The notes below the pieces were generated by a model, which was given only the letters and a program-made list of their open reading frames with translations, was not told the origin of the DNA and ran no database searches. From a virus: a stretch of 47,260 nt of DNA. Shown in pieces: positions 3,799-28,448 of this stretch. The position numbers and the translations under genes are program-made. Within the stretch, counting starts at the first letter, position 1. Each line of letters opens with the position of its first letter. Where the stretch lies: the IMG/VR virus record IMGVR_UViG_3300021354_000010, positions 1-47,260 of that record; one strand, 5' to 3'.

Positions 3799-4680
3799 TT
3801 ATTTATCTTTATTTATAAGTTTATACTGCTTGACCATCGCTGCATCGAATCCCTTATTACTTTTATCAAGTTTCCGTCTAGTTTCTGCATGATTGGGATT
3901 AGTAATAGAATCATTCTTTACAAGATTTGCTCTCTTTTCTGCACTCTTTTGCATATATGATTGTATTGCTTTATGAGTACCCAAAACTTCTAATAACTCA
4001 TTATCATCTAAGTCAGAATAATCTTCATTGGCAATTCTCAATTCTTTTGCAACTCTTGGGTGGTCAGATAATCCTTTATGTAGTTTTTCAATATCATCAA
4101 CCGCACCAGTCATATTTCCACCTTTCTTTTTAGCAATAGCAACTGCCTTTCTGATAATATGGTGAGCAATAACCCCTTCGTTGAATTCCTCATATTCTTC
4201 ATGACAATCATGGCAAGATGATAACGTATCGTGAATGCTATCTATAACAGATGATTTGACACCATGTTTACCGAGAACGTCCAATAGATTATACAATGAA
4301 GTTTTATTTGAAGTAACTTTCAAATCAGGAAGAACATCAATAACTGCTTTAGTATTAGCATGCTTCTTTATTGCCGAAATAACCTTGTTTATCTCAACAC
4401 TTTGGTCTGCTTCTTGCAATTCAAGTTCTTCTTTAAATTGAGCTGGTTTTACATGGGCGGTAATTGAAGCAATATGTTGAGGTTTAATGCCTTGATCCAT
4501 TAAAGCATTATTAACATTATCCCATGTTGTATGTTTTTTTGTTCCTGGTCTTAAATGTGTTAAAAATTTAGATGAACCCTTTGTTCCTAATACTTTTGTA
4601 ACGCTATCTGTAACATGTTGAACTGGAATTTTTTCTTCATCTAGTTTAAATTCTTCTTTGAATTCTTTGTATGTTTTCAT
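3799..4680 (-). CDS. putative packaged protein with capsid-targeting-like N terminus (293 aa)
   Basis: I chose the ATG at 4680, giving the start MKTYKEFKEEFKLDEE; an upstream in-frame ATG exists 12 codons earlier without support. The first residues closely resemble the T4 internal-protein targeting peptide MKTYQEFIAE. The body seems to hold two similar helical repeats (about residues 20-90, VTKVLGTKGSSKFLTHL, and 115-160, LYNLLDVLGKHGVKSS). A third part follows with IIRKAVAIAKKKGG, which resembles a motif common at cleaved ends of marine phage virion proteins. No enzyme motif is seen. It starts 6 bases after the Dps-like gene ends. Confidence 0.6.
   Translation of the reverse strand: MKTYKEFKEEFKLDEEKIPVQHVTDSVTKVLGTKGSSKFLTHLRPGTKKHTTWDNVNNALMDQGIKPQHIASITAHVKPAQFKEELELQEADQSVEINKVISAIKKHANTKAVIDVLPDLKVTSNKTSLYNLLDVLGKHGVKSSVIDSIHDTLSSCHDCHEEYEEFNEGVIAHHIIRKAVAIAKKKGGNMTGAVDDIEKLHKGLSDHPRVAKELRIANEDYSDLDDNELLEVLGTHKAIQSYMQKSAEKRANLVKNDSITNPNHAETRRKLDKSNKGFDAAMVKQYKLINKDK
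3810..3817 (-). promoter_or_regulatory. T4-type late promoter (TATAAATA)
   Basis: The minus strand reads TATAAATA, the exact T4 late -10 box recognised by gp55-RNA polymerase. It lies within the end of the preceding gene, about 40 bp before the Ig-like structural gene start at 3769. Confidence 0.6.
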
Positions 4681-4685
4681 TGTTA

Positions 4686-5126
4686 TTAACCTTTTGTCAA
4701 TGCTTTTAGTTTCCATCCGTGAGCGGCATGCACGTCTAAACGATCTGCAAGAAAGTTACACGTACCTTGTTTCTTCGCATAAGTCGCAAGATCAAATGCT
4801 TTATTTAATGAATCTATTGTAGCATTATTAGCATCAATAAGATTTGAAAACATTTGACTTGTAGAAGAAACCACATTAGTATCTTCTTGAAATGTTTTAG
4901 CATTAAACATATCTTCTATACTAAACGGCGCATATCCATCAATTGCTCTGATATGTTCTGCAATTGGATCCACTGCATTCCATAGTTCATCATAAAGATC
5001 ATTGAAAAACTCATGATATTGAGCAAATTCTGGACCTTCGACATTCCAATGCGAGGAATGTGCCTTAAAATACATAAAAAAAGTATTTGCCTGACATATC
5101 TTTAGTGCTGCCTGAAGTTCATTCAT
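4686..5126 (-). CDS. Dps/ferritin-like protein
   Basis: This 146-residue four-helix protein carries the Dps signature HSSHWNVEGPEF, then HEFFNDLYDEL and VDPIAEHIRAI. In Dps dodecamers, iron is oxidised at a dinuclear site between subunits. H26, H38, D53 and E57 match the known ligands, but the residue four after H38, normally Asp, is N42, and the usual AER is AEH. It lacks the Lys-rich DNA-binding tail of E. coli Dps. It sits between two genes with capsid-targeting-like N termini, but its own start (MNELQAALKICQ) lacks that peptide. A role in guarding DNA or handling iron in infection is inferred. Confidence 0.8.
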   Translation of the reverse strand: MNELQAALKICQANTFFMYFKAHSSHWNVEGPEFAQYHEFFNDLYDELWNAVDPIAEHIRAIDGYAPFSIEDMFNAKTFQEDTNVVSSTSQMFSNLIDANNATIDSLNKAFDLATYAKKQGTCNFLADRLDVHAAHGWKLKALTKG

Positions 5127-5134
5127 TATTGTTC

Positions 5135-7399
5135 CTAGTGATGTGATAATCTGTTCTTTTCAGTTTGGCGAACTCTTGAAGTCAACTTAAGTGCCAATCT
5201 GTCTATTAGTTTTTTCTTTTTCTCGATGATTCTATCTATGCGTTCATGCTCAACAGTAGATAATTTCGTGGGATCTCTACCTTTTAGTAACTTAGTTTTG
5301 ATAGTTTTAATTGCTAGGTGTCTTGCTTTATTATTTATCCCATGACTGTCAGAATGTTTCTTTAATGCAATTTCGCGTTTAGCAGTTAGTTTAGGTTCAT
5401 ATTTCGCCATTCTTAATTTTGCCTTTATTCTTTCCATTTTAGAAAGGACTTCATTAAGAGATTCATCATCGAAACCTTCGACAATAACTTCAATTCCATT
5501 TTCATCAATGATACAAAAATCTTCGTATTCATATGTTTCCAAAATGTCTTCTTCGGTTACCATTGATACTAACTCATCGATTTCTTCTTCTGTAAAATCT
5601 TCATTAGTATTCATTAATTTCTTTGCTTTCATTCTAGCAAGGGTGTCATTACCATTTGTAGTCAAAGATGCACCTACATGAGTTTGTTCTTGACCCGAAT
5701 GATCATCGTTATCTTTGATGCCACTAGTATGACCTGTATTTGAGTAATTCTCGATTTCTTTCTTAGTATTCGCGTCTATGTCTACAGGAATATTAGCGCC
5801 TTTACCAAGGTTATTCATCTGAATCAATTTCTTTTCATCATCAGGTCTTAATGAAGATAAGTTTGGTTTTGTTTTACTTGCTACAATAGATTCTGCTTTC
5901 TTTTCTGAAAGAATTTTATCGACTATATTTGGTGTTGTTCTGCCATAACTCTCTGCTCTAACTTCAGGAGTTTTGATAATTTTATGGTCATAGTTAATAC
6001 CAACTTCATCAGCAAGTTTCAACATTTTTGTGACGATTTTCAATGAATCTTTTGGAAGGTTCTTTGCCTTACGTAAAGCATTATTAACTAAATTCTCAGG
6101 GTTACTTGATTTATCATCTTCTCCACCAAGCACAGAAGAAATGACCTTTGCTACTTTTAATTTATCTTTATTGGGATCCATTACACTCTCTGAAACATCT
6201 GATGATTGTTGGTTGTCTGATTTTACAATGCGAACTGCATATACTGCCTTATCAAGTAAATCTTTATATAAGTGCCAATATTCTGTATGCCAAATAAATT
6301 CATTATTATTATCTAATGCTTGCTTTGCTCTTAAATGTGCATCTGACCATTTAAGCAAATCATTCATATTCTCTTTACCACCTTTGAGGATATCATCAAC
6401 AGTAATTTTTAAATACTCATCTGTATTTTTTAAAGCAATCAATACTGATGCAGGATCTACATCGCCTATATTATCAATAGTCTTTCTAAATGCTTCTGCA
6501 GAACCTTTAGCATTGTGCAGGTTTTTAGTTGTATACCCTTTAAAAGATATTTCTAACGGTGTTTCAGAATAAAGATTATTCTGAAACTGATTGTCTGTGT
6601 ATATTTGTTGTTCTGCCATTACTACATCCTTTAACCATTTTTTGCTTGTTTGACCATTAGAATCAACAACTGTTAAATAATTAGTCCCTCTATCAATTAT
6701 TTCAAACCGTTGTTCATTTGATTCTACTATATCACCGATGTTAAATATTTCTTTATTGATATATCTCTCACGTAGATCATCTTTTTTGATTTTAATATTT
6801 TCCTTTATAACATCAAGACCCATACCTAATCGAACATCATTCATAAGACGTTTTCCATCTATGTCTCGCATCGAAGGAGTCAATCCTTTCTTAAAGTTTG
6901 TATAATCACCATCAGATGCAAATGCTCTCATCTTAGTTCCAGACATACCTGTTGCATCATCTGAATCTGGATCACGTTCTCCTGCAGAAACTACTTGTAT
7001 AGAATCATAGGTATATTCTATTCCATTATACTTATTCAATAATGACTCAAAAGAACTAATCCTATCAGAACCTGCAATCATAATAAGGTTCTTATATTTC
7101 GAATTTAATGCCTTTGCAACTTCTATTGGAGTTCGTTCTTGGTCATTTGCTGCTTTGAAATTAGTACCAGGAAACATTAGATTCAAGTAATGAATCTTTT
7201 TGTCTATAGGAAGAGGATTTTTCTTTTTATCCTGCGACTTTGAAGCATATATGACATAATCTGCTTTGTTAGTAGATGCAATTTTCTTGACTACATTAAT
7301 AAGCAGACCATGTCCAGATGTCATCGGATTGAACCTACCAAAAGCAAACACGACAGTTTTGGATGGCATTTCCTTTAGGAATTGTCTATATTGTTTCAT
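5135..7399 (-). CDS. nucleotidyltransferase (NMNAT/cytidylyltransferase fold) with capsid-targeting-like N terminus
   Basis: This 754-residue protein begins MKQYRQFLKEMPSKTV, a capsid-targeting-like peptide. The HxGH-type nucleotidyltransferase motif follows (FGRFNPMTSGHG, residues 20-31), with SGTKMR at 153-158 as the ISSTxxR counterpart. That domain transfers a nucleotide from NTP to NMN, a phosphoalcohol or similar; substrate unknown. Around 220-265 is a KOW-like small domain (IGDIVESNEQRFEII ... KKWLKDVV). The C-terminal half is acidic and helical, ending in a basic Lys/Arg-rich stretch (about 690-754). Similar multi-domain proteins occur in marine T4-like phages. It has its own late promoter (7430-7437). 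Packaging in the head is inferred. Confidence 0.75.
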   Translation of the reverse strand: MKQYRQFLKEMPSKTVVFAFGRFNPMTSGHGLLINVVKKIASTNKADYVIYASKSQDKKKNPLPIDKKIHYLNLMFPGTNFKAANDQERTPIEVAKALNSKYKNLIMIAGSDRISSFESLLNKYNGIEYTYDSIQVVSAGERDPDSDDATGMSGTKMRAFASDGDYTNFKKGLTPSMRDIDGKRLMNDVRLGMGLDVIKENIKIKKDDLRERYINKEIFNIGDIVESNEQRFEIIDRGTNYLTVVDSNGQTSKKWLKDVVMAEQQIYTDNQFQNNLYSETPLEISFKGYTTKNLHNAKGSAEAFRKTIDNIGDVDPASVLIALKNTDEYLKITVDDILKGGKENMNDLLKWSDAHLRAKQALDNNNEFIWHTEYWHLYKDLLDKAVYAVRIVKSDNQQSSDVSESVMDPNKDKLKVAKVISSVLGGEDDKSSNPENLVNNALRKAKNLPKDSLKIVTKMLKLADEVGINYDHKIIKTPEVRAESYGRTTPNIVDKILSEKKAESIVASKTKPNLSSLRPDDEKKLIQMNNLGKGANIPVDIDANTKKEIENYSNTGHTSGIKDNDDHSGQEQTHVGASLTTNGNDTLARMKAKKLMNTNEDFTEEEIDELVSMVTEEDILETYEYEDFCIIDENGIEVIVEGFDDESLNEVLSKMERIKAKLRMAKYEPKLTAKREIALKKHSDSHGINNKARHLAIKTIKTKLLKGRDPTKLSTVEHERIDRIIEKKKKLIDRLALKLTSRVRQTEKNRLSHH

Positions 7400-7429
7400 T
7401 GGGTTCCATCTATAAAGTAAACGATATAG

Positions 7430-7437
7430 TATTTATA
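7430..7437 (-). promoter_or_regulatory. T4-type late promoter (TATAAATA)
   Basis: The minus strand reads TATAAATA about 30 bp before the start of the nucleotidyltransferase gene at 7399, and immediately after the end of the frameshifted reading frame at 7440. Confidence 0.7.
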
Positions 7438-7439
7438 CA

Positions 7440-8127
7440 TTAATAAATTTCACGCCATTGTAATCCAACTCCAACATTAGTTGAATGTGCACCTAAATTT
7501 GTAGCTACAACTAAAAAGATTTCAGAATTACTACTATCAAAATTCTTTAATTGTGAATGCAAACCATACATCTAATTTAGTAGTATTATCTACCCGTCTC
7601 ATACATAATGTTAACATATTTGGACTTCCTCCACCATACATACTTGCTGGTCCTTCGTCGCCTGAAGTATTTTTACCTATGATAACTCCACTATGCCTCA
7701 TATATGTTCCTGTTGGAACAGTAAATGTATTACCTTGATTACTAGAGTATACGTCTTGATAAACTCGATATTGACTATGTACACCAAATGTATTCCAAGC
7801 TGGAATGATAGCACCTGATATTGACAATGGTCCTTCATACCACTCATAAATAATTGTACTCTGATTGGCATTATTATTACCAATCTCATATTCCATAATT
7901 TTAATTATATCATTAGCATTTACACTACTATTTTGAAAGCTGACCACTGGTCGCATAGTATTATCCATTGTCCAACCCCGATTAGTATTGGTAGCATGAT
8001 TATTAAATGCGTATGAACTACCAGCCAGTTCATCTATTACTACTATTCCTGTAACAGGGATAGGATTACCAATATCATTTTTAATTTCTTGATTATTTGT
8101 AAATAAGTATGTCAAATTATTCTCCAA
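7440..8127 (-). CDS. probable virion protein read through a +1 frameshift (196 aa zero-frame, 228 aa shifted)
   Basis: The zero frame (7537-8127) gives 196 residues, from MENNLTYLFTNNQEIKND to FAFTIKEF. It ends at UUU UGA, followed at once by UAG. A +1 slip of Phe-tRNA from UUU to the overlapping UUU enters a frame that stays open for 32 codons (DSSNSEIFLV ... GLQWREIY) and stops at 7440. That extension looks protein-like and fills the gap exactly up to the late promoter. The Ser/Thr/Asn/Gly-rich beta composition suggests a virion or fibre-associated protein. It overlaps the next gene upstream by 16 bp. A single-base insertion or sequencing error is the alternative to programmed shifting. Confidence 0.6.
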
Positions 8128-8924
8128 CCATTTCTATAGATTAATTGTATTGCCCCGTTATCCATTTGCAGAATAAACCCACCAGCATCATTATCAACAG
8201 TTCCTTGAACAGTAATAGGATTTATCGAAGAGTTACCAGTTTCGTCTTTAATAATTAGCATTCTACCTGAACTAGGTGAAGTTGGTAAAGTAATAGTAAC
8301 TGGACCTGCATAATTTACTCCAATATAATAATCTTCATTATTAACTGTATAAGTTGAAGTAGTAACTAATGTTGTAGTATATACAATATCATGAGGATTT
8401 ACTTCAGCAAATTCAAATTTCTTTAACGTATCATTATATCTAAGAAATCTTCCATCATATATTGAAGGTCTATAAACATCATCAAGATATCGTAAATTTA
8501 CTTCACCCGATCCAGGACCCAAAGCAGCAATTTTACCAATTGCTTGTTCCATGAACTTTAGTTTCTGGCGGATGGCATCCATTTGAGGTGTAACTAAATC
8601 TGGATCAGGTTGTTGGAATGATTTATCTGTATAAATCTTATCCAATTCTGGTTTTGAATATTGTTGAGATGCAGGTTTAATTTGTGGAAGAGGAACTTCT
8701 TCAATCAAAGTTTCCTCTACTATTTGAGATGCTTCTTCTATTTGTTCAATAACTTCTAATGGTTCTACTTTAGTTACTATCTCAGATAATTGGGCAAATA
8801 AAGAACCTAAATCAGATTTGACATTCAGTTTGACTTCTTCTAACTTTTTGCCAACAGGATCATTTTTTTTATAGTCCTTTTTACCTTCAGCAACAAGTTT
8901 TAAGAAATCTTCGAATTCACTCAT
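8112..8924 (-). CDS. structural protein with tail-fibre-like C-terminal domain
   Basis: The 270-residue protein opens MSEFEDFLKLVAEGKKD, a divergent form of the capsid-targeting-like peptide. A Glu/Val/Pro-rich linker (about 35-110) and a short helix (FMEQAIGKIAALGPG) follow. The last ~90 residues (TYTVNNEDYYIGVNYAGPVTI ... YRNGWRII, with intervening residues omitted) match a beta-helical end domain widely found in phage baseplate and fibre proteins, with its RMLIIKDETGN motif. The combination suggests a virion protein. It overlaps both neighbours by 4-16 bp (8921-8924 and 8112-8127), so translation is coupled. Confidence 0.65.
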   Translation of the reverse strand: MSEFEDFLKLVAEGKKDYKKNDPVGKKLEEVKLNVKSDLGSLFAQLSEIVTKVEPLEVIEQIEEASQIVEETLIEEVPLPQIKPASQQYSKPELDKIYTDKSFQQPDPDLVTPQMDAIRQKLKFMEQAIGKIAALGPGSGEVNLRYLDDVYRPSIYDGRFLRYNDTLKKFEFAEVNPHDIVYTTTLVTTSTYTVNNEDYYIGVNYAGPVTITLPTSPSSGRMLIIKDETGNSSINPITVQGTVDNDAGGFILQMDNGAIQLIYRNGWRII

Positions 8925-9631
8925 TTTAATCTATCTCCACCTTTAACTATGAATTCCAATTCTTTAAAATTCATAGCATCTACTATCCAAACGATATCAT
9001 CTATGGGTATTAACTTATTATATACCTTTCCTTGATTCTTCTTTAATCTATCATTACTTTCTTTATTATCTTTTTGGATATTACTCAAAACATCTTCAAT
9101 ATCTTCTATATCATACCCAGTTAAATAATTTTTGTTCTGATAAAGATTGAAGTACTTACCGTCTTTTGATTTGATAACTTTATAAGTGCCTAGTTTAGAA
9201 ACACCTTTTAGATTAAATTGATTTAATGCTTTCTTAATATCATCATCACTATATTCAGGAAATAGTTTTGAATGATTAGCATGCATAGCAGCTATTTTAG
9301 GACTTGCTGTCCAAGAATATATTTCTCTACCACTGCTGTGTTTAGTATTTTCCTCAGACCTATCAGTTTCACCTCTATATAATTCTATATGAGAACCAAA
9401 CAATGTTTTCAATAATTCTCTGGCAGGTTTGAACTCGTGTTCCAAAGTCTTTAAAACAATTGGATCTTCTAAAGCATTACCACTAGAAGCAAGTGTACCG
9501 TGTGACCAAGAAGTTACAGCATTTTTACAGTTAGAAGGAAGTGTCTTACTAATTTTCTTGACTAATGATATAGCTTTACCTAACTTCTTAGTGTCAACAG
9601 ATTCTAATAAAAATTCCTTGAATGACTTCAT
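8921..9631 (-). CDS. ADP-ribosyltransferase, putatively head-packaged (Alt-like)
   Basis: The 236-residue protein begins MKSFKEFLLESVDTKK, very close to the T4 capsid-targeting peptide with a predicted prohead-protease cut after LLE. The R-S-E signature is present: ELYRGE (R86), a YSWTAS strand (S106-S110), and FKELEF with E224 and E226 as ExE. These are the features of arginine-type mono-ADP-ribosyltransferases, which move ADP-ribose from NAD+ to host proteins. In T4, Alt is packaged in the head and modifies host RNA polymerase at once on entry. The sequence is not close to Alt overall, so the target is unknown. Confidence 0.75.
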   Translation of the reverse strand: MKSFKEFLLESVDTKKLGKAISLVKKISKTLPSNCKNAVTSWSHGTLASSGNALEDPIVLKTLEHEFKPARELLKTLFGSHIELYRGETDRSEENTKHSSGREIYSWTASPKIAAMHANHSKLFPEYSDDDIKKALNQFNLKGVSKLGTYKVIKSKDGKYFNLYQNKNYLTGYDIEDIEDVLSNIQKDNKESNDRLKKNQGKVYNKLIPIDDIVWIVDAMNFKELEFIVKGGDRLK

Positions 9632-9634
9632 CCA

Positions 9635-9796
9635 CTATCCTTTGTGCTTGAAATACTGCACTTCTCGTTCTCTTTGTTCAGCACCCTCTTTAGAATCATA
9701 AGTGCCTAAATTCTTTCCTGACTTCTTAGATACTAATCTCCATTTGCCATCAACCTTAATAATATGTTCTTCTAAATAGTCTTTAAATGTTTTCAT
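9635..9796 (-). CDS. small putative packaged protein (53 aa) with capsid-targeting-like N terminus
   Basis: This short frame begins MKTFKDYLEEHIIKVDGKWR and ends EREVQYFKHKG. It lies between the ADP-ribosyltransferase and the repeat protein with a gap of only 0-3 bp on each side. The N terminus is nearly the same as that of the next gene (MKTFKDFIEE). The middle (WRLVSKKSGKNLGTYDSKEGAEQRE) resembles small phage and bacterial proteins with a strand-turn-strand-helix plan like the repeats of its neighbour. Its function is unknown. After cleavage only about 43 residues would remain, similar in size to processed internal peptides of T4. Confidence 0.65.
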   Translation of the reverse strand: MKTFKDYLEEHIIKVDGKWRLVSKKSGKNLGTYDSKEGAEQREREVQYFKHKG

Positions 9797-10303
9797 TTAA
9801 TCATATCCACCAAATTGAACTGATGTCATCAATAACATTTTTATAGCGGCCGCCTTAGATTTAAAATGTTCAATATAATCACCATTTGGGTCTGTAAGTA
9901 TCCAGTCTTTTTCTGACTTTTTTTCTATAGTCCAACTAGTATCTTGTTTAGTTACGCTATGAAAAACTCTCCAGTAGTTTGGTCCCCATGCCTTAAGTAC
10001 AGGTTTACCAACTACACTTTCTTCTAAATAGTCTTCTTCTAGATTAAATGCACCTATGGTGGCTCTTAAGTAAGTTTTACATGCCGCAAGAGATGGAAAG
10101 TATTGTATATTTTCTTGATTTGGATCAATAAGTTTCCATTTATTTGAGGCTAGTTTCTCAATATTGTAACCAGTTTCTTCCTTTGTTTGACTATTGTATA
10201 CATGCCAAATATTTTTAACACCCCATTCCTTAGCATACTTATGTTGCCTAAGAATTGGAACTGCTCTATTACTTTCTTCTATAAAATCTTTAAATGTTTT
10301 CAT
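9797..10303 (-). CDS. putative packaged protein with two tandem ~60-aa repeats
   Basis: I chose the ATG at 10303, giving MKTFKDFIEESNRAVP; the longer frame adds 19 residues with no family support. Residues ~25-80 (NIWHVYNSQTKEETGYNIE ... KWKLIDPNQENIQYF) and ~115-165 (NYWRVFHSVTKQDTSWTIE ... DWILTDPNGDYIEHF, interrupted here) are clear repeats of one domain. The second repeat is preceded by EEDYLEES, which looks like a leftover capsid-targeting peptide, so the gene may come from fusion of two tandem copies. It has no catalytic motif. Processing by prohead protease is inferred from the N terminus. Confidence 0.65.
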   Translation of the reverse strand: MKTFKDFIEESNRAVPILRQHKYAKEWGVKNIWHVYNSQTKEETGYNIEKLASNKWKLIDPNQENIQYFPSLAACKTYLRATIGAFNLEEDYLEESVVGKPVLKAWGPNYWRVFHSVTKQDTSWTIEKKSEKDWILTDPNGDYIEHFKSKAAAIKMLLMTSVQFGGYD

Positions 10304-10304
10304 A

Positions 10305-10619
10305 TTAATCGTATTTTGAGTCTGAAAATCTAGGATAGGGTTTTTCGTGCTTAATCGCATCTGCTAAATCTAATGCAAATACTTTAGCAGAACTAAGTTT
10401 GACAAAAACATACCGTCTTAAATCACCTACTCTACTTCCTGGCTCTGGTTCTCCATCATTAACCGACCATTCATTATGTTGAGTTCTAAATATTGCCACT
10501 ACTTCAGTTGGTATATCCCACTTATCTCTTTCAACGTCAATTTGATACCAATCTTTATTGACTTTCCTAATCTTTAAGTTATTAGTTACTTCTGTTATAA
10601 ACTCTTTAAATGATATCAT
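10305..10619 (-). CDS. putative packaged protein (104 aa) with capsid-targeting-like N terminus
   Basis: The frame could start at 10628 (MAKMISF), but the ATG at 10619 gives MISFKEFITEVTNNLK, matching the shared N-terminal peptide of this cluster. The body is a small mixed alpha/beta domain with WYQIDVERDKW, WSVNDGEPEPGSRVGDLRR and a final helix (VFALDLADAIKHEK). I recognise no catalytic motif. It overlaps the end of the nucleotidyltransferase C-half gene (10616) by 4 bp and is separated by 1 bp from the repeat protein, so it belongs to the same late transcript. Confidence 0.6.
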   Translation of the reverse strand: MISFKEFITEVTNNLKIRKVNKDWYQIDVERDKWDIPTEVVAIFRTQHNEWSVNDGEPEPGSRVGDLRRYVFVKLSSAKVFALDLADAIKHEKPYPRFSDSKYD

Positions 10620-11779
10620 TTTTGCCATCCCTTTAAAATATCTGCTGAGAAGTTGGCACGGGAGAATTCCATTCGATCAACGATCTTAACCGCACCACCT
10701 GATAATTTGTCTATCGCTACAAACCCTTCAACACCTGTTACTTCAAAACCATTCTTTGTTTTCAAGAATGTTTTGATTGATGCCGCCTTGTTCATCTTTT
10801 CTATAATTGGTTTCTTTACCTGTCCAAGTAATATAGATAATTCAAAGATTTTTACAATCTCTGCTTGATCGTGTGCTGCAAAGAACGAAAGAACTTTTTT
10901 ACGTTTTTCTTCCCAACCCACTTTTCCTTTCTCTGTTTTCTTGGCATCAATCTCTTTTTGATACCTTTCATAGATCCAATCAAATAACCCCTTAACATGC
11001 TCTTTTGGGTTAGTAATTGTTTGTCCAGCACGAATCTTACTGTTATTGTAAGTTAATACCAATCCCAATAGATCTTCATCATTACTAATATAGTTTAATG
11101 CACCTGCAGATACATCATGAAACAATGCACCAATCTTAGATAACATTTCAGTAACATATTCTGTCTCTGCAGCAGTGAAAGATGCAGTTCCAGAATAATC
11201 ATGATAATTTGCGTCGTCCATCCATACAGTTGGAGTTGGTTTTAATTTATCGACTATTGACTTACCGAATGTAGCAGACATAGTTTCAAATGAATCGCCA
11301 GTATACGTGGTATGCCAGACTACCCCAATTTCTGCAGATCTAATCTTTTTTGCCAGATCTGCAGAATAAGGAACTGCATATACAATTGTATTGGGATGGA
11401 ATGTTGAATACTTTTCTCCATCAATAACTTCTGATTTAACATCACCTTTAGTAAACATTAAATCTCCTTGGTATACACCAGATTTAATGCCAAGTTTTTT
11501 AAAGTTTTTTAATGCAATTTTGAATTTGTCTGCTAACTCACCTGAAGTATCAGCATCAATCTCTGCATCTGTTTTGTATATCTTTGGCTCTTTGTTGAAA
11601 ACACCTTTCTTTGCAATAAAGAATTTTCCATCTCTAGGATCTATGCCTGCGAATATTGCTGGAGAATTATGAATTAGTATATAACCGCTATTAGTTTTAA
11701 CATAAAAGTTTTCAAATGCAGTAGATATATCATACTGCGTATATTTTTCTTCTAGTTTAGTTACTCTTGAAACCTTCAT
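10616..11779 (-). CDS. C-terminal half of ligase-like nucleotidyltransferase with split-intein C part
   Basis: Residues 1-38 form an intein C-terminal part, ending FYVKTNSGYILIHN, with the catalytic Asn38 and Ser39 as the +1 nucleophile. The extein begins SPAIFAGIDPRDGKFF. Joined to the N-half it reads KWDG-SPAIF, that is motif I of the ATP-dependent ligase/nucleotidyltransferase superfamily. Later motifs support this: EGFV (351-354, motif IV) and VKIVDR (K365-R369, motif V). The uncut family resembles DUF6267 proteins of T4-like phages. A nucleotidyl-lysine enzyme acting on RNA or DNA ends is inferred. The gene overlaps the endonuclease by 23 bp. Confidence 0.8.
   Translation of the reverse strand: MKVSRVTKLEEKYTQYDISTAFENFYVKTNSGYILIHNSPAIFAGIDPRDGKFFIAKKGVFNKEPKIYKTDAEIDADTSGELADKFKIALKNFKKLGIKSGVYQGDLMFTKGDVKSEVIDGEKYSTFHPNTIVYAVPYSADLAKKIRSAEIGVVWHTTYTGDSFETMSATFGKSIVDKLKPTPTVWMDDANYHDYSGTASFTAAETEYVTEMLSKIGALFHDVSAGALNYISNDEDLLGLVLTYNNSKIRAGQTITNPKEHVKGLFDWIYERYQKEIDAKKTEKGKVGWEEKRKKVLSFFAAHDQAEIVKIFELSILLGQVKKPIIEKMNKAASIKTFLKTKNGFEVTGVEGFVAIDKLSGGAVKIVDRMEFSRANFSADILKGWQK
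11666..11779 (-). other. split-intein C-terminal part (38 aa) in nucleotidyltransferase
   Basis: This encodes intein blocks F and G: KYTQYDISTAFENFYVKTN, then GYILIHN before Ser+1. The size fits canonical split inteins of the gp41-1/NrdJ-1 type. It pairs with the 102-residue part at 12468-12773. Confidence 0.85.
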
Positions 11780-12401
11780 TTATAAAAACCTTTCTAATTT
11801 TATGTGCAATTGGGATAAAACTTTCATGTAATGTATTACCTTTTATGCTATTTACATACCTCAAAACATATACTAAATTATTCTTATCCGCAGCATCTTC
11901 AATAGATATGCCATTTAAATAACAAATAATTATAGGAACCTTATGATCTATAGACCTTTTCCTAGGGTCATTTGGATTTGATGGACCCTCTTCATCAGAA
12001 AAAAGTATACCAGTATAATCACAATATCGAGGAATTGACATCAATTTTATATTTTTTTTGGATAATGTACTTACTTTTTTATGATATACTTTGTAATCTT
12101 CATCTAAAACTCTAGGTTTTAGATATGGTATAGAATTAGTTTTACACCACCCATTACCGCCAAGTTTTGATATATTAGAAACGCCATATCGTTCTAACAT
12201 AAGTTTTTCTTGATTTTCTACCTTTTTTGCCAAATAATTTGGACCATTTAATCCTTCAAAAACACCAACAGATTTTAATATATTATTAATTTTATTTCTA
12301 CCAATTCCATCGTTACATATTCTCATAACTTCTGATAACGAATAAGTTTGCAAATATAACTCAATATACTTAGATTCCATTTCTTTAGTTATTACTGACA
12401 T
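11757..12401 (-). CDS. homing endonuclease, HNH-like, lodged between split-intein halves
   Basis: The 214-residue protein has an N-terminal helix-turn-helix-like part (YSLSEVMRICNDGIGRNKI, about 17-36) and a LERYGVSNISKLGGNG segment common in phage homing endonucleases. The C-terminal nuclease part has CDYTGILF, RSIDHKVPIIICYLNG and YVNSIKGN, matching the order Cys, DH, Asn, N-x-x-KGN of HNH-type endonucleases. It lies in the same direction as both halves of the interrupted gene, has its own late promoter (12424-12431), and overlaps the C-half start. Its likely target is the intein-free allele of the same gene; this is inferred from the fractured-gene arrangement described by Dassa and colleagues. 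Confidence 0.75.
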   Translation of the reverse strand: MSVITKEMESKYIELYLQTYSLSEVMRICNDGIGRNKINNILKSVGVFEGLNGPNYLAKKVENQEKLMLERYGVSNISKLGGNGWCKTNSIPYLKPRVLDEDYKVYHKKVSTLSKKNIKLMSIPRYCDYTGILFSDEEGPSNPNDPRKRSIDHKVPIIICYLNGISIEDAADKNNLVYVLRYVNSIKGNTLHESFIPIAHKIRKVFINEGFKSN

Positions 12402-12423
12402 TATAATCTCCTTTATAAAATAG

Positions 12424-12431
12424 TATTTATA
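12424..12431 (-). promoter_or_regulatory. T4-type late promoter (TATAAATA) for endonuclease and C-half
   Basis: The minus strand reads TATAAATA about 25 bp before the endonuclease start at 12401. It directly follows a terminator, so the second half of the fractured gene is transcribed on its own. Confidence 0.75.
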
Positions 12432-12460
12432 AAAATTAAAAAGTCAGACGGTATCCGTCA
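12431..12460 (-). terminator. intrinsic terminator after the N-half gene
   Basis: On the minus strand, GACGG-ATA-CCGTC (12447-12459) forms a 5-bp GC-rich stem with a 3-base loop. It is followed by a T-rich tract (CTTTTTAATTTTT). It lies 5 bp after the stop of the N-half at 12465. Confidence 0.7.
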
Positions 12461-12464
12461 CATT

Positions 12465-12956
12465 TTATAATTCAGTTATATCGTCGTTTTCAGTTAAATC
12501 TGCTGCTTTTATCCATCCTCTATTGGTAGTATGAACTTCATGATCTTCAGTCAATTTTATACTTCCACCATCTTCTAACTGGACTTCAACCCAGTTTTTA
12601 AATCCTTCTGATTTATTTCCTGCGATTAATAAATTAAATCCGTCATATTGCCACTGACTATTAAGATTTTTGCCCATAATTTCAAGTTCGCCCCACAAAT
12701 GTTCTTTATCAACTATTTCTTTAATAGTCATATCACCTGCATTAGTAAGAATAACTGTATCTTCATGTACACACCCATCCCACTTGACAGTGGCAGTAAC
12801 CTTTCCTGTTGAATGACCTGCAAGCATATCCCTGATAGAACGTAAAAAATTAATTGCCTTTCTTGTCCCAGTAACTCCTTCTAGAAACACCATATCTTCG
12901 AGGTGTTCCATATGAGTATTTTTTGCTTCCGTAAGGTATGATTTAAAAGATAACAT
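12465..12956 (-). CDS. N-terminal half of ligase-like nucleotidyltransferase with split-intein N part
   Basis: I chose the ATG at 12956, giving MLSFKSYLTEAKNTHMEH, the capsid-targeting-like start with a predicted cut after LTE. The extein (residues 1-61) ends in VKWDG, motif I of ligase-type nucleotidyltransferases, whose Lys58 would carry the AMP. Residues 62-163 are an intein N part: block A begins CVHEDTVILTNAGDM with Cys62, and block B holds GGSIKLTEDHEVHT with the TxxH motif intact. The protein ends at LTENDDITEL. Only trans-splicing with the product of 10616-11779 can restore the enzyme. The gene ends just before a terminator. Confidence 0.8.
   Translation of the reverse strand: MLSFKSYLTEAKNTHMEHLEDMVFLEGVTGTRKAINFLRSIRDMLAGHSTGKVTATVKWDGCVHEDTVILTNAGDMTIKEIVDKEHLWGELEIMGKNLNSQWQYDGFNLLIAGNKSEGFKNWVEVQLEDGGSIKLTEDHEVHTTNRGWIKAADLTENDDITEL
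12468..12773 (-). other. split-intein N-terminal part (102 aa) in nucleotidyltransferase
   Basis: This runs from Cys62 to the stop codon of the N-half gene. Cys1, an A block (CVHEDTVIL) and a B block (LTEDHEVHT) are visible. The split lies at the usual endonuclease insertion point. Confidence 0.85.
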
Positions 12957-12963
12957 TATTAAC

Positions 12964-14220
12964 CTATGATATTTTAATATATGGACCAGATAGTTCTGAT
13001 TCTGAAGCGGCATAACCGATTAAAGCAGAAACAATTGCATTTTTATTTGCGTGTAAATCTACGTAATATACCAATTGAGTAGAAAGGAATTTAGATATCC
13101 ACCAATTCTGATCTTTAGTATCTACATAAATTTCAAATTGAGATTCCGACATTGCTTTTGGTACTAGGTGTTTATAAAACTTATAAAATTCTTTTATAAG
13201 TTTTGGAGATTTGTTTACAATATCCTTTTGCGTAAATAAGGTGATACCATTATTTTTCATTATAGTATTAATTGGGCCACCTGATATTTTTCCCATATTG
13301 GCGTTCTTACCTTTAATTTCACCTTGCCAAGTAGAACCAAATGTTCTAAATTGAATTTCTCCACCATCAAACATAATGTAAGCATCACCAGAATTTTCGA
13401 ACGATCGTTTACCAACTGTCAATGAAACAAATCCATATGTAGGTCTTGTAGATGATGCATTTTTAATGATAATTGTTGCAGTTGTTTTAACTAACTTCAA
13501 AGAAACACCGATTATGTCTCCTGAATTTAGAGCATCTGCCATGACAGCATTCAATTCTATTATTGATTTTGTTTTGGATAAATCTATTGTTGAACCAGCA
13601 GTAGATACCATGTATATGTCTGCAGGAGACCACTTGTTTAGATTTGCAAATTGTTGTTCCTTTTTGTTGAGTATTTTCCAATGGTTTTGGAGTTTATTTA
13701 CCCATTCAGAACCTCTATGGAAAGTATATGTTTTACTTTTATATTTTTTATGCAATCTGTTTGCAGTAAGTATACACGATTCTACCCAGTGCTCTGGAAG
13801 TTTTTCTAATATTTTATCTACTGTAGTATCGATATCATAACTAGATTTTACAGATTTAAATGATTCCTTTGAGAAATCTTTACCAACCCAAACTGCCGCA
13901 CAGTAGATACATTGAGCGGATTCACCCAGTGTTGTCATATCAGAACCTGCACCAGATCCACCTCCTGAAGGTTTAGCGCTTACAGATATCCCACCTGCAA
14001 ATTCTGCACGACCTATAGAAGAAGTACCACCCTTTGGATTGTATTTACCTCCAAATTCTGATGCTAATTTGTTGAGTACACCTACTCTGTCTCCATCTAC
14101 AATTATGTCGATATTCTTACCATTCTTCTTTTTTATGGTATACCCTTTGGAGATTAAGGTAGATTCTAAACTGTTTATATCCATATCTGATTCACTCAAG
14201 TATTGTATAAATGATTTCAT
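12964..14220 (-). CDS. putative packaged protein (418 aa) with capsid-targeting-like N terminus
   Basis: It begins MKSFIQYLSESDMDINS, with a predicted prohead-protease site after LSE. A small N-terminal domain (25-70) and a Gly/Ser-rich linker (GGISVSAKPSGGGSGAG, about 92-108) follow. The main domain contains CIYCAAVW, ESCILTANRLHKKY and NKWSPADIYMV. KW-x-PADI(W/Y) motifs occur in several marine phage proteins of unknown function; I cannot name the enzyme class. It has its own late promoter (14249-14256). The stop lies 7 bp before the nucleotidyltransferase N-half start. Confidence 0.6.
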   Translation of the reverse strand: MKSFIQYLSESDMDINSLESTLISKGYTIKKKNGKNIDIIVDGDRVGVLNKLASEFGGKYNPKGGTSSIGRAEFAGGISVSAKPSGGGSGAGSDMTTLGESAQCIYCAAVWVGKDFSKESFKSVKSSYDIDTTVDKILEKLPEHWVESCILTANRLHKKYKSKTYTFHRGSEWVNKLQNHWKILNKKEQQFANLNKWSPADIYMVSTAGSTIDLSKTKSIIELNAVMADALNSGDIIGVSLKLVKTTATIIIKNASSTRPTYGFVSLTVGKRSFENSGDAYIMFDGGEIQFRTFGSTWQGEIKGKNANMGKISGGPINTIMKNNGITLFTQKDIVNKSPKLIKEFYKFYKHLVPKAMSESQFEIYVDTKDQNWWISKFLSTQLVYYVDLHANKNAIVSALIGYAASESELSGPYIKIS

Positions 14221-14248: not shown

Positions 14249-14256
14249 TATTTATA
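14249..14256 (-). promoter_or_regulatory. T4-type late promoter (TATAAATA)
   Basis: The minus strand reads TATAAATA about 30 bp upstream of the start at 14220. It marks the boundary between the early modification operon and the late packaged cluster. Confidence 0.7.
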
Positions 14257-18450: not shown

Positions 18451-19641
18451 CTAATATTTAAAATCACTGAATGATCCTTCTTGCATTACACGTTTACCAA
18501 TTGCAGACTTATCAAATAATGGAATATCTTCTTTTGGTTGCCCAGAATCTGCCAAGTTGGTCTGAGCAGATGCTTCTACATCATATAATTTCATTTTAGA
18601 TCTATCAACCCCTATCACAAATCGTTTATAATAACTAGGATCATTGTATCTGTTCTTCAACTGTTTAACAATAATCTGGTTCATTTGTTCTAATTCTTCA
18701 TTGGATATTAACGCAAACATCAAATCTGCTGTTGCAGGTAATCCGAATGATTCCGAAGTATCTTCAAGACCCACATCACTATTGGAATATCCACCTCTTG
18801 TGGTTTGAGTTGCAGATATAATCGGTACATTATATTCAACTGCAAGACCTCGAAGTTCTTCTGCGATAGACTTAATGTAAGTATAACTATTAACCGATCC
18901 TCCTTGTTTCATACGTTGACTTGCACAAATATTAAGATAATCGATCATAATAATATCTGGAACAAACCCACGTTTAACTTTCAACTCTTCCAATAATGCT
19001 CTAAAATGACCAGCATGTGCTGAAGCAGTAGGATATTCTTTAACTATAAGTTTACCTTGTGTCTTTTTAGCGACCTTATGTATTCTCTTATTAAATGCCT
19101 CATGATCAATGGTTTTTAACTCGTCCATAGTTACATTTAATAAGTTAGCGTCTATACGTTCTGCAATACGTTCTTCTGCCATTTCCATCGTAATATACAA
19201 CACGTTTCTACTCTGTTTCAATACACCTGCAGCAACGTGACACATAAACAAAGATTTTCCAACACCTGTATTATGAGAGGATACGCCATTTGTATAGTAT
19301 CTATGGTTATCATGTTCTACGTTAATATCGACAATTGGAATACGTCTTCCTGTTTTGTATACCTCGCCTTTAACGTATCCTAAATTAGTTAAGTAGTTTA
19401 ATTTTCCCATTAAAATAAGATCTTTGGCAAATTCCCAACCAAGTGCAGTCTCAAATAAATGATTTTCATTAACTCTAACTATAGTACCATTTTCGAGTTC
19501 TAAAACATATTCTTCCCATTCACCTTTATCAACATAAAAATTAACAGGAACATATCCATCTGGAGAATCTACTTCTATTTCATAACCTTCCTTTAAAAGT
19601 CTATCAATATCTTTAATACTAATTTCGCTATTTGTCCACAT
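18451..19641 (-). CDS. 41: C-terminal half of gp41 replicative helicase with split-intein C part
   Basis: I chose the ATG at 19641 (MWTNSEIS) because GAGGA lies 6 bases upstream; the frame extends 10 codons further. Residues 1-124 are an intein C part, with block B GTIVRVNENHLF, block F VDINVEHDNHRYYTNG and the end SSHN before Thr125. The extein starts TGVGKSLFMCHVAAG, the rest of Walker A. It is followed by IIMIDYLNICAS (Walker B) and IISATQTTRGG of DnaB-family helicases. With the N-half extein the total is about 465 residues, like T4 gp41 (475). gp41 is the 5'-3' fork helicase. It has its own early promoter (19685-19713). Confidence 0.9.
   Translation of the reverse strand: MWTNSEISIKDIDRLLKEGYEIEVDSPDGYVPVNFYVDKGEWEEYVLELENGTIVRVNENHLFETALGWEFAKDLILMGKLNYLTNLGYVKGEVYKTGRRIPIVDINVEHDNHRYYTNGVSSHNTGVGKSLFMCHVAAGVLKQSRNVLYITMEMAEERIAERIDANLLNVTMDELKTIDHEAFNKRIHKVAKKTQGKLIVKEYPTASAHAGHFRALLEELKVKRGFVPDIIMIDYLNICASQRMKQGGSVNSYTYIKSIAEELRGLAVEYNVPIISATQTTRGGYSNSDVGLEDTSESFGLPATADLMFALISNEELEQMNQIIVKQLKNRYNDPSYYKRFVIGVDRSKMKLYDVEASAQTNLADSGQPKEDIPLFDKSAIGKRVMQEGSFSDFKY
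19270..19641 (-). other. atypical split-intein C-terminal part (124 aa) in helicase
   Basis: This part carries everything after block A: a B block (VNENHLF, with Asn at the usual Thr of TxxH), F and G blocks, penultimate His123 and Asn124, then Thr+1. It pairs with the 16-residue N part at 20405-20452. Confidence 0.85.
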
Positions 19642-19684
19642 AATAATCCTCGAAAATTCAAAACAATTCAAAACATATAAATAA

Positions 19685-19713
19685 AGTATACCTTATAAAG
19701 GTATAAAAGTAAA
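19685..19713 (-). promoter_or_regulatory. early promoter for helicase C-half
   Basis: TTTACT (19708-19713) and TATACT (19685-19690) on the minus strand have a 17-bp spacer. It gives the C-half its own transcript, independent of the uvsX-helicase N-half operon. Confidence 0.8.
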
Positions 19714-19724
19714 GCCAAAATTAT

Positions 19725-19778
19725 GGTAGTCGCGAGACGGCAATCTCCACTACTCTAATACTAAACAGGAGTATCAGC
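19725..19778 (+). promoter_or_regulatory. structured leader before the HNH endonuclease
   Basis: The plus strand can fold into GTAGT/ACTAC with inner GAGA-CGGCAA-TCTC. A second hairpin, ATACT-AAACAGG-AGTAT, covers the GGAG ribosome site of the endonuclease. Hairpins that hide the ribosome site are known for free-standing phage homing endonucleases. Confidence 0.5.
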
Positions 19779-19780
19779 AA

Positions 19781-20410
19781 TTGTTATTTATTAACATATA
19801 TAATAATCTGTGCGAAACAAGAAAACAAAATATACATTTATATAAACCATTCTCTGGATTGCATAAGCATCACATTATTCCAAAACATTCTGGTGGAACT
19901 GATGATGAATGGAATTTCACCTACCTCACAATCCGTGAACATAAAATAGCACATTTCTTATTGTGGAAAATACATAACAACCCAAATGATTTGCGATCAA
20001 TGAAAATGCTCGGTGCAAATCTTTCTGTAAATTATCGAAGAACAATAGGAATTTATTGTAGAGACAATAATATAGGTATACATTCTACAAAATATGATAA
20101 TAAAAGAAAAGAAGTTGGTCACCGTGTTGGATTACAAGCAGTTACAAACAAATCTGGTATCCATGCAGATGATCAAGAATTACGTTCAAGATGGGCATCC
20201 AATGCTGGTAAAGCATCTATTATTTCTCCAAATAATCCATGGTCATATTGGGTAACCAAAGAAGGGCAATTAGAAAGAGCATCAATGGGTGGTAAAGCAA
20301 TCAAAGGAATGAAATGGGTAACCAATGGTAAGCATAGAACTAGAATAAAACCAGAATTTCTAGAAGAATACTTATCCAAAGGTTACAGATTAGGATTTAC
20401 TTTAGATTGA
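19781..20410 (+). CDS. HNH homing endonuclease between helicase halves
   Basis: The frame is on the plus strand, opposite to the helicase. It starts at a TTG (19781) nine bases after GGAG; no better start is seen. The 209-residue protein shows an HNH motif near residues 25-60 (LHKHHIIPKHSGGTDDEWN, then LTIREHKIAHFLLWKIH). The rest is basic with repeated KGMKWVTNG-type segments (NUMOD-like, around 130-205) that bind DNA in related enzymes. It ends convergently with the helicase N-half, overlapping by 9 bp. The role inferred is mobility of the split intein into intein-free gp41 genes. Confidence 0.8.
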   Translation: MLFINIYNNLCETRKQNIHLYKPFSGLHKHHIIPKHSGGTDDEWNFTYLTIREHKIAHFLLWKIHNNPNDLRSMKMLGANLSVNYRRTIGIYCRDNNIGIHSTKYDNKRKEVGHRVGLQAVTNKSGIHADDQELRSRWASNAGKASIISPNNPWSYWVTKEGQLERASMGGKAIKGMKWVTNGKHRTRIKPEFLEEYLSKGYRLGFTLD

Positions 20411-21031
20411 TTTCCTATAACGCACTTTAACTAATGTCTCGGGATGTACACAACCAGCAAGAGCAATATTGAGTGTCTTTCTTGGCAATCCACCACCAGT
20501 GATTTTATTGAACATATCTAAATCAAACGGAATTCTATCCTCTGTTTTATGATAGAATTCGAATCTAGCATCAGCATCATCGATATAATCGTGACCAACA
20601 CTGTTATCAAAAGAAACTGCCAATGCATCTGAAAGAATAGATGGCAAAGCATCTTGAGTGAATTGTGTATCAGTACCCTCAATGATTTTAATTGATTTTA
20701 AAATGGCATTATAAACTGCCCTTGACTTACAAAACTTTTCTGTTTCTGCGAATAACCAATCTTGATTCGCAGGTTCTGTAGAAAGTTCTTTTACGTACTC
20801 GATAATCTCGGACAGTTCTTTATCCGAGATACCTTTAGCATTACCCAGTTCGATACTAATAATTTCCTTAGATGCAGGTTTATTATAAGTATCGAAAAAC
20901 TTCATTATGATAGAAGAGATAATCGATTCTTTTCTATCTGAGAAATACTCTTTTTTTAAATGTGGAATTACTTTACGACCAAACTCTTCACTCGTAATCA
21001 GATTGCTCAATATCGTTTGTTCTATTCTCAT
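20402..21031 (-). CDS. 41: N-terminal half of gp41 replicative helicase with 16-residue split-intein N part
   Basis: I chose the ATG at 21031, giving MRIEQTILSNLITSEEFG, because GGAG lies 3 bases upstream and T4 gp41 starts similarly. Residues 1-193 are the DnaB-like N-terminal domain and linker, ending GLPRKTLNIALAG, the first part of Walker A. Residues 194-209 (CVHPETLVKVRYRKSI) are intein block A only, then a stop. The gene overlaps the 123-residue gene upstream by 44 bp and ends 9 bp inside the opposite-strand endonuclease. Without trans-splicing, neither half would have an intact ATP site. Confidence 0.9.
   Translation of the reverse strand: MRIEQTILSNLITSEEFGRKVIPHLKKEYFSDRKESIISSIIMKFFDTYNKPASKEIISIELGNAKGISDKELSEIIEYVKELSTEPANQDWLFAETEKFCKSRAVYNAILKSIKIIEGTDTQFTQDALPSILSDALAVSFDNSVGHDYIDDADARFEFYHKTEDRIPFDLDMFNKITGGGLPRKTLNIALAGCVHPETLVKVRYRKSI
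20405..20452 (-). other. ultra-short split-intein N-terminal part (16 aa)
   Basis: CVHPETLVKVRYRKSI carries the catalytic Cys1 and block A, then stops. Typical natural N parts are about 90-120 residues. The size matches, from memory, the T4-like-helicase intein class (VidaL) reported by Burton and colleagues. Confidence 0.85.
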
Positions 21032-21356
21032 CAACTCCACCTGTATATGATAAATTATTTTTCTTGATACCACTAATAATCAATTGTATTAGAAAATCTC
21101 CTAGGTAGTGTTCAATCTCATCTTTATCATATTCTAATCCTGCATCATCATGTACGTCATAATCAAAAGATAACTTAGCGTTATCGTTATCGTCAGTTTC
21201 TGGAAATTCTACTTTACCATAACTGAATATTATACCGTTAAACTTACCATCTGTAAACTGTATAGCATGCATTCCATCATGTTTATTCTCAAGGACTTTA
21301 TGGGGAAATATATCCGCATCATCAAAGTCCAACCAAGTTTCTTCTATATCACTCAT
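20988..21356 (-). CDS. conserved acidic protein between uvsX and helicase
   Basis: Starting at 21356 (MSDIEETWLDFDDADIF) the product has 122 residues. It contains AIQFTDGKFNGIIFSYGKV and ends YTGGVDENRTNDIEQSDYE. A protein with this pattern occupies the same place between uvsX and gene 41 in marine T4-like phages, from memory. It is acidic with no membrane or catalytic signature. Its start overlaps the uvsX stop by 8 bp and its end overlaps the helicase start by 44 bp, so all three are translated as one coupled unit. A role with recombination or the primosome is only inferred from position. Confidence 0.65.
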   Translation of the reverse strand: MSDIEETWLDFDDADIFPHKVLENKHDGMHAIQFTDGKFNGIIFSYGKVEFPETDDNDNAKLSFDYDVHDDAGLEYDKDEIEHYLGDFLIQLIISGIKKNNLSYTGGVDENRTNDIEQSDYE

Positions 21357-27833: not shown

Positions 27834-28448
27834 TCATTTCAATAATTTGATAGAACCATCGGAGGAAACGAAATATGCTTCGAACTTGATTGTTGGAAAT
27901 AGTTTCTTTAGTTCAAGAAACTTGGTAAGGTTACTCATCGCATCATCAAATAAACTTACTCGGTCGAACTGACCTGATGTTAGATAGTTATGTATGATTA
28001 TAAACTTCTTCTCGGCAGCACTATTAATATCAGTAATATTACCTGCTCTTTCTACTCGCACTTTATCGATATCGAACCTATGTTTCCTGAATGTATCTAG
28101 AAACTTTTCCTTGTTATTGAAGTTTGCCCTTGCAGTTACAACAATAACTTTACTTAGGGGATTCTTTGCAGAATGAGAAAGAATTGCTCTTGCCCTATCC
28201 ATCATTCTTGCAATTGGTTTAGATTCTTTGTAGAACTTTTCCGAGTCTCTAAATTCTGAAAAGTCAAAATCTTCGCCATGGTTAAGGACATATGTATTGA
28301 ACTGTTTGTTGGTTAATTTCTTAACAACTTTACCATCTTTCACTACACTGATCATAGCAGTAGTATGAAACAATGTATCATCTATGTCGAATATAGATAA
28401 TCTACCAAGTTTATTCTCTTCCATAAGATATTCTTTGAACGATTCCAT
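27834..28448 (-). CDS. HAD-family phosphatase with capsid-targeting-like N terminus
   Basis: I chose the ATG at 28448 (MESFKEYLMEENKLGR), which gives the shared targeting-like peptide; the frame extends 8 codons upstream. HAD motifs are clear: SIFDIDDTLFHT (motif I, two Asp), VIVVTARANF (motif II Thr), AAEKKFIIIHNYL (Lys) and VSLFDDAMSN (motif IV). Such enzymes remove phosphate from nucleotides or 3' ends; T4 Pnkp has a related phosphatase domain. Unlike the other targeted proteins it lies outside the late cluster, and no TATAAATA is seen upstream, so packaging is uncertain. Confidence 0.7.
   Translation of the reverse strand: MESFKEYLMEENKLGRLSIFDIDDTLFHTTAMISVVKDGKVVKKLTNKQFNTYVLNHGEDFDFSEFRDSEKFYKESKPIARMMDRARAILSHSAKNPLSKVIVVTARANFNNKEKFLDTFRKHRFDIDKVRVERAGNITDINSAAEKKFIIIHNYLTSGQFDRVSLFDDAMSNLTKFLELKKLFPTIKFEAYFVSSDGSIKLLK

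Follow-up and report, generated by a model that had tools for sequence, protein, structure and literature searches.

The tagged gene cluster

The stretch of DNA analyzed here, the window, is a genome fragment of a T4-like phage, 47,260 bases long and recorded in IMG/VR as IMGVR_UViG_3300021354_000010. Its DNA polymerase is ~50% identical to cyanophage polymerases, and the lineage lies nearer to Kyanoviridae. Between positions 3799 and 14220 the minus strand carries a cluster of genes, several of whose products begin with the same ten-residue sequence, hereafter the tag. It resembles the capsid targeting sequence (CTS) of T4 internal proteins, and we interpret it as a likely signal for loading enzymes into the phage head. 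The open reading frames (ORFs) and promoter-like boxes concerned are as follows, with a hyphen marking the junction after residue 10 of a tag.

14249..14256, minus strand: TATAAATA late-promoter-like box, 29 bp upstream of the first cluster gene
12964..14220, minus strand: tagged protein of 418 amino acids, MKSFIQYLSE-S, PHROG 1462 (unknown function; E 8e-59), opening the cluster
12465..12956, minus strand: tagged N-terminal part of a DUF6267 (ligase-like) enzyme, MLSFKSYLTE-A (DUF6267 E 3e-11), with an intein N part after ..VKWDG (Intein_splicing E 2e-5)
11757..12401, minus strand: ORF between the DUF6267 halves, possible homing endonuclease, no domain match
10616..11779, minus strand: intein C part and C-terminal part of the DUF6267 enzyme (..HN-SPAIFAG.., the hyphen here marking the intein boundary), untagged (E 3e-86)
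10305..10619, minus strand: tagged protein of 104 amino acids, unknown function, MISFKEFITE-V
9797..10303, minus strand: tagged repeat protein of 168 amino acids, MKTFKDFIEE-S
9635..9796, minus strand: tagged ORF of 53 amino acids, MKTFKDYLEE-H
8921..9631, minus strand: tagged protein of 236 amino acids with ADP-ribosyltransferase-like motifs, MKSFKEFLLE-S
8112..8924, minus strand: tail-fiber-like protein with a loosely tag-like start, MSEFEDFLKLVAE-G (MSEFEDFLKL), failing the strict grammar
7430..7437, minus strand: TATAAATA late-promoter-like box, 31 bp upstream of the nucleotidyltransferase gene
5135..7399, minus strand: tagged HxGH nucleotidyltransferase (cytidylyltransferase/NMNAT-like N domain), MKQYRQFLKE-M
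4686..5126, minus strand: Dps/ferritin-like protein, untagged, a conserved neighbor
3799..4680, minus strand: loosely tagged protein of 293 amino acids, MKTYKEFKEE, with K at position 8, failing the strict grammar
27834..28448, minus strand: tagged HAD/polynucleotide-kinase-phosphatase-like protein outside the cluster, MESFKEYLME-E (PHROG 415, E 0.003)

The initial annotation of this DNA described the cluster as late. The two TATAAATA boxes listed above precede tagged genes that open gene blocks, and on their position late expression of the cluster would be plausible, although enrichment of the box across the whole window was rejected (9 observed versus 10.5 expected).

Several of the enzyme labels given in that annotation could be examined further. 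The HxGH nucleotidyltransferase is confirmed by Pfam PF01467 (CTP_transf_like, E 5e-7) and by a PHROG cytidyltransferase profile (E 7e-65), and carries the motif GRFNPMTSGH. The ligase-like enzyme belongs to DUF6267 (E 3e-86), its gene being split across two ORFs with split-intein parts. The supposed ADP-ribosyltransferase at 8921..9631 has the motifs LYRG, SWT and ELEFIV (LYRG..SWT..ELEFIV) in a form kept in its one phage homologue, which is encoded by Rhizobium phage RHph_I1_18 (E 8e-11) and has the N terminus MISFKSHLNES, the alignment taking in the tag. The protein has no Pfam match, and a profile comparison with T4 ModA/ModB gave no significant match, the similarity being at the level of motifs. 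The AlphaFold model from the single sequence has a predicted local distance difference test score (pLDDT) of 33. The motifs and the one phage homologue hint that the protein may be an ADP-ribosyltransferase, an assignment that we make only weakly. Searches among viral contigs found no relatives of 8921..9631 or of 12964..14220, and searches for phage homologues of 9797..10303 and 27834..28448 found none.

A shared N terminus on unrelated proteins

We defined a strict grammar for the tag, ^M..[FY]..[FY][LIVM].E (F/Y at position 4, F/Y at 7, L/I/V/M at 8, E at 10), and scored it at every ATG, GTG and TTG on both strands of the window (2566 open start-like codons). It gave eight matches, all of them ATG gene starts on the minus strand, whereas 60 second-order Markov shuffles gave a mean of 0.35 and a maximum of three. 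A pattern-free comparison of N termini recovers the same group of proteins, with 13 pairs of similar starts where shuffled sequences give 0-2. Seven of the eight matches lie within 3799-14220. Translation confirms the tags at the places given in the initial annotation; of its eight or nine tagged cluster proteins, seven fit the strict grammar, and the two looser candidates (3799..4680, with K at 8, and 8112..8924, without E at 10) fail the strict grammar. Scanning beyond the cluster added the eighth protein, at 27834..28448, which the initial annotation had overlooked.

Behind the tag stand a nucleotidyltransferase, DUF6267, PHROG 1462, an ADP-ribosyltransferase-like protein, a HAD-like protein and proteins of unknown function, with no family in common. 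The proposal that these proteins are unrelated is borne out by Pfam, BLAST clusters and profile comparison, none of which reveals a common body. When two tagged proteins of ADP-ribosyltransferase type are compared by profile, only residues 1-13 align.

Tag and prohead protease in related phages

A near relative is the 174-kb contig G001, whose polymerase is 54% identical and whose cluster is syntenic with that of the window. Its only four strict matches are a DUF6267 protein, a DUF6321 protein and two nucleotidyltransferases, the adjacent Dps being untagged, and it encodes an S77 (gp21-type) protease. An untagged Dps/ferritin-like protein adjoins the tagged nucleotidyltransferase in the window (4686-5126), in G001 and in contig G002 (one of these at L077:6824-7255).

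In whole-genome scans, T4 has three strict matches, namely two internal proteins and gp61.1, and S-CRM01, S-CREM1, S-CREM2, S-SCSM1, P-SSM2 and KVP40 have 2-4 each, a few of which are not gene starts. Melnitz and HTVC008M have one each, and phiM12, T5 and SPO1 none. The reversed pattern gives five matches summed over the same 12 phage records. The S77 protease was found in all eight named T4-like phages searched, and in T5 and SPO1 the search for it came up empty, as did that for the tag. The T4 gp61.1 protein (54 amino acids, gene 61.1, 18966-19130) starts MKTFKEFIKE-D, which fits the grammar of a CTS.

A scan of viral contigs with one tag pattern returned at least 93 strict-tagged ORFs, which fall into at least 36 body clusters without detectable mutual similarity. 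The matches listed include a GNAT acetyltransferase and, clearly recognizable as such, an ADP-ribosyltransferase (ART-PolyVal, E 1e-23), and 9 of 32 tagged contigs, most of them fragments, carry S77. The largest family among them (contig L206 and relatives; at least 40 clustered ORFs) corresponds to PHROG 727/DUF5661, with no known function. Also among the matches listed, the 14-kb contig L247 has seven strict-tagged ORFs, with a tagged cluster at 5912-9422 that includes one DUF5662 ORF and one that looks like an ADP-ribosyltransferase.

Common descent or a bias in N-terminal sequence could also make protein starts alike, and Lys- and Phe-rich starts are common in AT-rich genomes. However, neither Pfam nor BLAST clusters relate the bodies to one another, shuffles and reversed patterns produce few matches, and profile comparison aligns the tag only. 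This explanation is therefore already disfavored, and we regard it as very improbable.

The predicted cleavage site

The T4 protease gp21 cuts at (L/I)xE, immediately before a small residue. The residue that would follow such a cut in the tag, residue 11, lies outside the grammar used to collect tags. A, S or G occupies this position in 21 of 35 curated tags (60%), against 19% of N termini generally (p=2e-7), and the non-redundant metagenomic tags show the same three residues in 22 of 42 cases against that background (p=3e-6); in the window residue 11 is S, S, S and A in four of the eight strict proteins. The scaffolds encoded beside the protease in G001, S-CREM2, S-SCSM1, RHph_I1_18, KVP40 and T4 contain 7-9 [LI]xE[AGSV] sites, with ~2 expected, and those of S-SZBM1 and S-CRM01 contain six (p 0.026) and four (p 0.042), respectively. 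The small residue at position 11, together with the scaffold LxE motif, ties the tag to the prohead protease.

Work with amber suppressors on T4 IPIII showed that targeting depends on residues 4 and 7 and processing on residues 8 and 10 (reviewed in PMC9026906). All eight strict proteins of the window have F or Y at the two targeting positions, and an aliphatic residue 8 and E10 at the two processing positions.

Tagged proteins in virions of related phages

Virion proteins have been identified by mass spectrometry in three cyanophages, S-SCSM1 (PMC9602691), S-CREM2 (PMC10665884, Table 3) and S-SZBM1 (PMC9146016, Table 1). For these comparisons, F was allowed at position 8 besides L, I, V and M. 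In S-CREM2 all four strict-tagged coding sequences are found in the virion, versus 48 of 215 untagged ones (p=0.003): a S-adenosylmethionine (SAM) hydrolase/lyase (MKDFDSFLEE), an APH-like kinase (MKRFDAFLTE), gp136 (MQTFSMFFSE) and a cytidylyltransferase (MKNFSSFLTE). Under a looser rule gp13 (MKDLHSFLTE), also in the virion, is tagged as well. One of the two strict-tagged S-SCSM1 proteins, an NMNAT (MKSFLQFLKE), is a virion protein. Over the three phages, 5 of 8 strict-tagged versus 125 of 711 untagged proteins (18%) are found in virions (p=0.006). The virion cytidylyltransferase of S-SZBM1 begins with MRFRQFIIEA, in which the same core is moved by one residue toward the N terminus, and if such a shift is allowed, a rule set post hoc after the data had been seen, the count becomes 6 of 9 (p=0.0016). 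The fourth S-CREM2 virion enzyme not concerned with lysis is gp12 (L009:7704-10313). Its annotation is Cas9, but neither Pfam nor NCBIfam models match it, whereas PHROG 3561 does (E 5e-42). It has a tag-like RFASFMAEAA at residues 18-27; an alternative in-frame start is unsupported because the Leu17 codon is CTG.

Several observations weigh against reading the tag as a packaging signal. The pooled enrichment rests mainly on S-CREM2, whose authors themselves warn of possible co-purification of abundant proteins (PMC10665884), and the independent S-SZBM1 proteome does not support the strict rule, with neither of two strict-tagged proteins in the virion list. The strictly tagged S-SCSM1 gp30 and S-SZBM1 191 and 192 are undetected in the published proteomes; all three are short, and the S-SZBM1 proteome yielded only 30 proteins. 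Some virion homologues of cluster proteins have no tag, among them S-SCSM1 gp90, an annotated virion protein homologous to 12964..14220 that is untagged at its annotated start. The S-CREM1 scaffold has four cleavage-like sites, which is not significant (p 0.098), and phiM12 has the S77 protease and no recognizable tag. Finally, we saw no gp21/S77 or scaffold gene among the ORFs of the 47-kb window, where the S77 family was not searched for.

The N terminus might instead dock another partner, such as the tail, the host polymerase or a membrane, its likeness to the CTS being the convergence of a short amphipathic helix. The grammar is short, with four loosely fixed positions, and both the tagged proteins undetected in virions and phiM12, with gp21 and no tag, would fit such a reading. 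Nevertheless, the LxE motif of the scaffolds and the preference for A, S or G after E10 point to the prohead protease, and tagged proteins are enriched in virions, so that docking elsewhere appears distinctly improbable. The swappable packaging tag proposed in the initial annotation stands in part. It agrees with the T4 key residues, the unrelated bodies, the enrichment in virions of relatives and a protease motif with a small P1' residue, but not with the three small tagged proteins undetected in published proteomes or with the untagged virion homologues.

Gain and loss of the tag

DUF6267 proteins have conserved bodies and variable starts. The window protein begins MLSFKSYLTE-AKNTHMEHLED and that of contig G003 MQSFKQFIAE-QKNTHMTHIED, whereas the tag is lacking in S-SZBM1 (M-AKNTHLEHLED) and in S-CRM01 (MAKDGKNVHLEHLED); the loss reaches exactly to the predicted cut, and the junction thus falls at E10. 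The virion list of S-SZBM1 does not include its untagged protein. The nucleotidyltransferase family shows the same pattern of gain and loss.

In RHph_I1_18, His occupies position 7 in the tags of all seven tagged proteins (MISFKSHLNE, MKSFSEHIAE, MISFKQHLNE, MQSFKEHLTE, MITFKQHISE and others), and at least five of these proteins seem unrelated; no tag collected from other genomes has His7. The set includes one kinase-like and two ADP-ribosyltransferase-like proteins. In a permutation test, tags are more similar within than between genomes with RHph_I1_18 (p=0.0025) and not significantly so without it (p=0.07). We therefore rejected genome-specific variants as a general rule and claim a variant for RHph_I1_18 only. 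It would fit recognition of the tag by a phage-specific partner.

Probable packaging of the tagged enzymes

We consider it likely that the decapeptide is a T4-type CTS, which anchors its cargo at the prohead core until S77 removes it, and that the freed enzymes stay in the head and probably enter the host. Late in infection, tagged proteins would bind the prohead scaffold core through F/Y4 and F/Y7, as the T4 mutants suggest, and conservation of the site suggests that S77 would cut after E10 at LxE followed by A, S or G. The freed enzymes would remain in the head with the DNA, as mass spectrometry indicates for homologues, and by analogy with T4 internal proteins and Alt they would probably be injected with it into the next host cell. 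There an exchangeable cargo (in the window the nucleotidyltransferase, the DUF6267 ligase-like enzyme formed by protein trans-splicing, the ADP-ribosyltransferase-like protein, the HAD phosphatase and proteins of unknown function) could act before phage gene expression.

Alternatively, the tag could be a docking signal for the prohead core on proteins that act in head assembly or DNA condensation rather than as injected effectors. T4 IPIII contributes to head morphogenesis (PMC9026906), the cluster adjoins Dps-like and structural genes, and ejection is argued by analogy with T4. Against this, enzymes with no connection to assembly recur as cargo (SAM lyase, kinase, GNAT, ADP-ribosyltransferase, nucleotidyltransferase), and the cargo varies from genome to genome. 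We judge an assembly role unlikely.

The tag shares with the CTS of T4 IPI, IPII and IPIII (MKTYQEFIAE, processed by gp21) its length of ten residues, the aromatic residues 4 and 7, the aliphatic residue 8 and E10, as well as the small P1' residue, the unrelated bodies and the S77 protease, the last in relatives of the window phage. It differs in that the window cargo consists mostly of predicted enzymes and the T4 cargo of small basic proteins, and in a lineage nearer Kyanoviridae; for the window, packaging is read from the sequence. T4 Alt is likewise an enzyme, an ADP-ribosyltransferase that is carried in the core of the head and undergoes gp21 processing (PMC9026906), whereas the ADP-ribosyltransferase-like protein of the window has a tag of internal-protein type and resembles ModA/ModB at the level of motifs. 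Homologues of the window nucleotidyltransferase (NMNAT/cytidylyltransferase), and a kinase, are virion proteins of S-SCSM1, S-CREM2 and S-SZBM1, with the same tag as in the window, shifted by one residue in S-SZBM1. Ejection proteins of the SPN3US/phiKZ type also have N-terminal propeptides that are cut by the prohead protease and have been proposed to target the head (PMC5694885), but these are usually ~100 residues or more, and the phages belong to another group.

The principle is already known for T-even phages, and PMC9026906 suggests that T4-like phages in general may use the CTS in this way. Probably new are the cases described here, in lineages of cyanophage type, on the present set of enzymes and with the His7 variant, none of which we found reported in the literature searched, which largely excluded subscription papers, so that an earlier report is possible. 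The available portions of PMC9602691, PMC10665884 and PMC9146016 mention neither a shared tag nor a loading mechanism. More tentatively, and with rather less confidence than we place in the CTS itself, the portable address may be a general loading code for DNA-delivered enzymes across very distant T4-like phages, with lineage variants such as His7 co-evolving with the scaffold, and the pre-loaded effectors of uncultivated phages may be predictable from N termini alone.

Proteins carried in with phage DNA are usually identified proteome by proteome. If the tag is read correctly, they could be listed from genome sequence, uncultivated phages included. With SAM lyase, kinases, ADP-ribosyltransferases, acetyltransferases and NMNAT-like enzymes among it, the cargo suggests takeover or counter-defense preceding phage gene expression. 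The tag would also explain why several cyanophages have NMNAT-like enzymes in their virion proteomes, which has been puzzling. Since the T4 packaging signal works on many fused proteins, a direct test is feasible in other T4-like phages.

Split genes in the window

The DUF6267 gene is broken into two split-intein ORFs within 10616-13013, with the unrelated ORF 11757-12401 between them, an arrangement that looks like the published fractured-gene layout of phage split inteins. The tag is on the N half and would therefore stay on the trans-spliced enzyme. The insertion point, VKWDG-SPAIFAG, resembles the nucleotidyl-lysine motif of ligases. A gp41-type helicase gene is likewise split (18451-21073): its N part (20402-21073) ends ..IALAGCVHPETLVKVRYRKSI, and its C part (18451-19671) carries the remainder of the intein before HN-TGVGKS. 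Between the two parts lies a divergent HNH-like ORF (19781-20410; PF01844 E 0.001), and the N part of the helicase intein would measure only ~16 residues.

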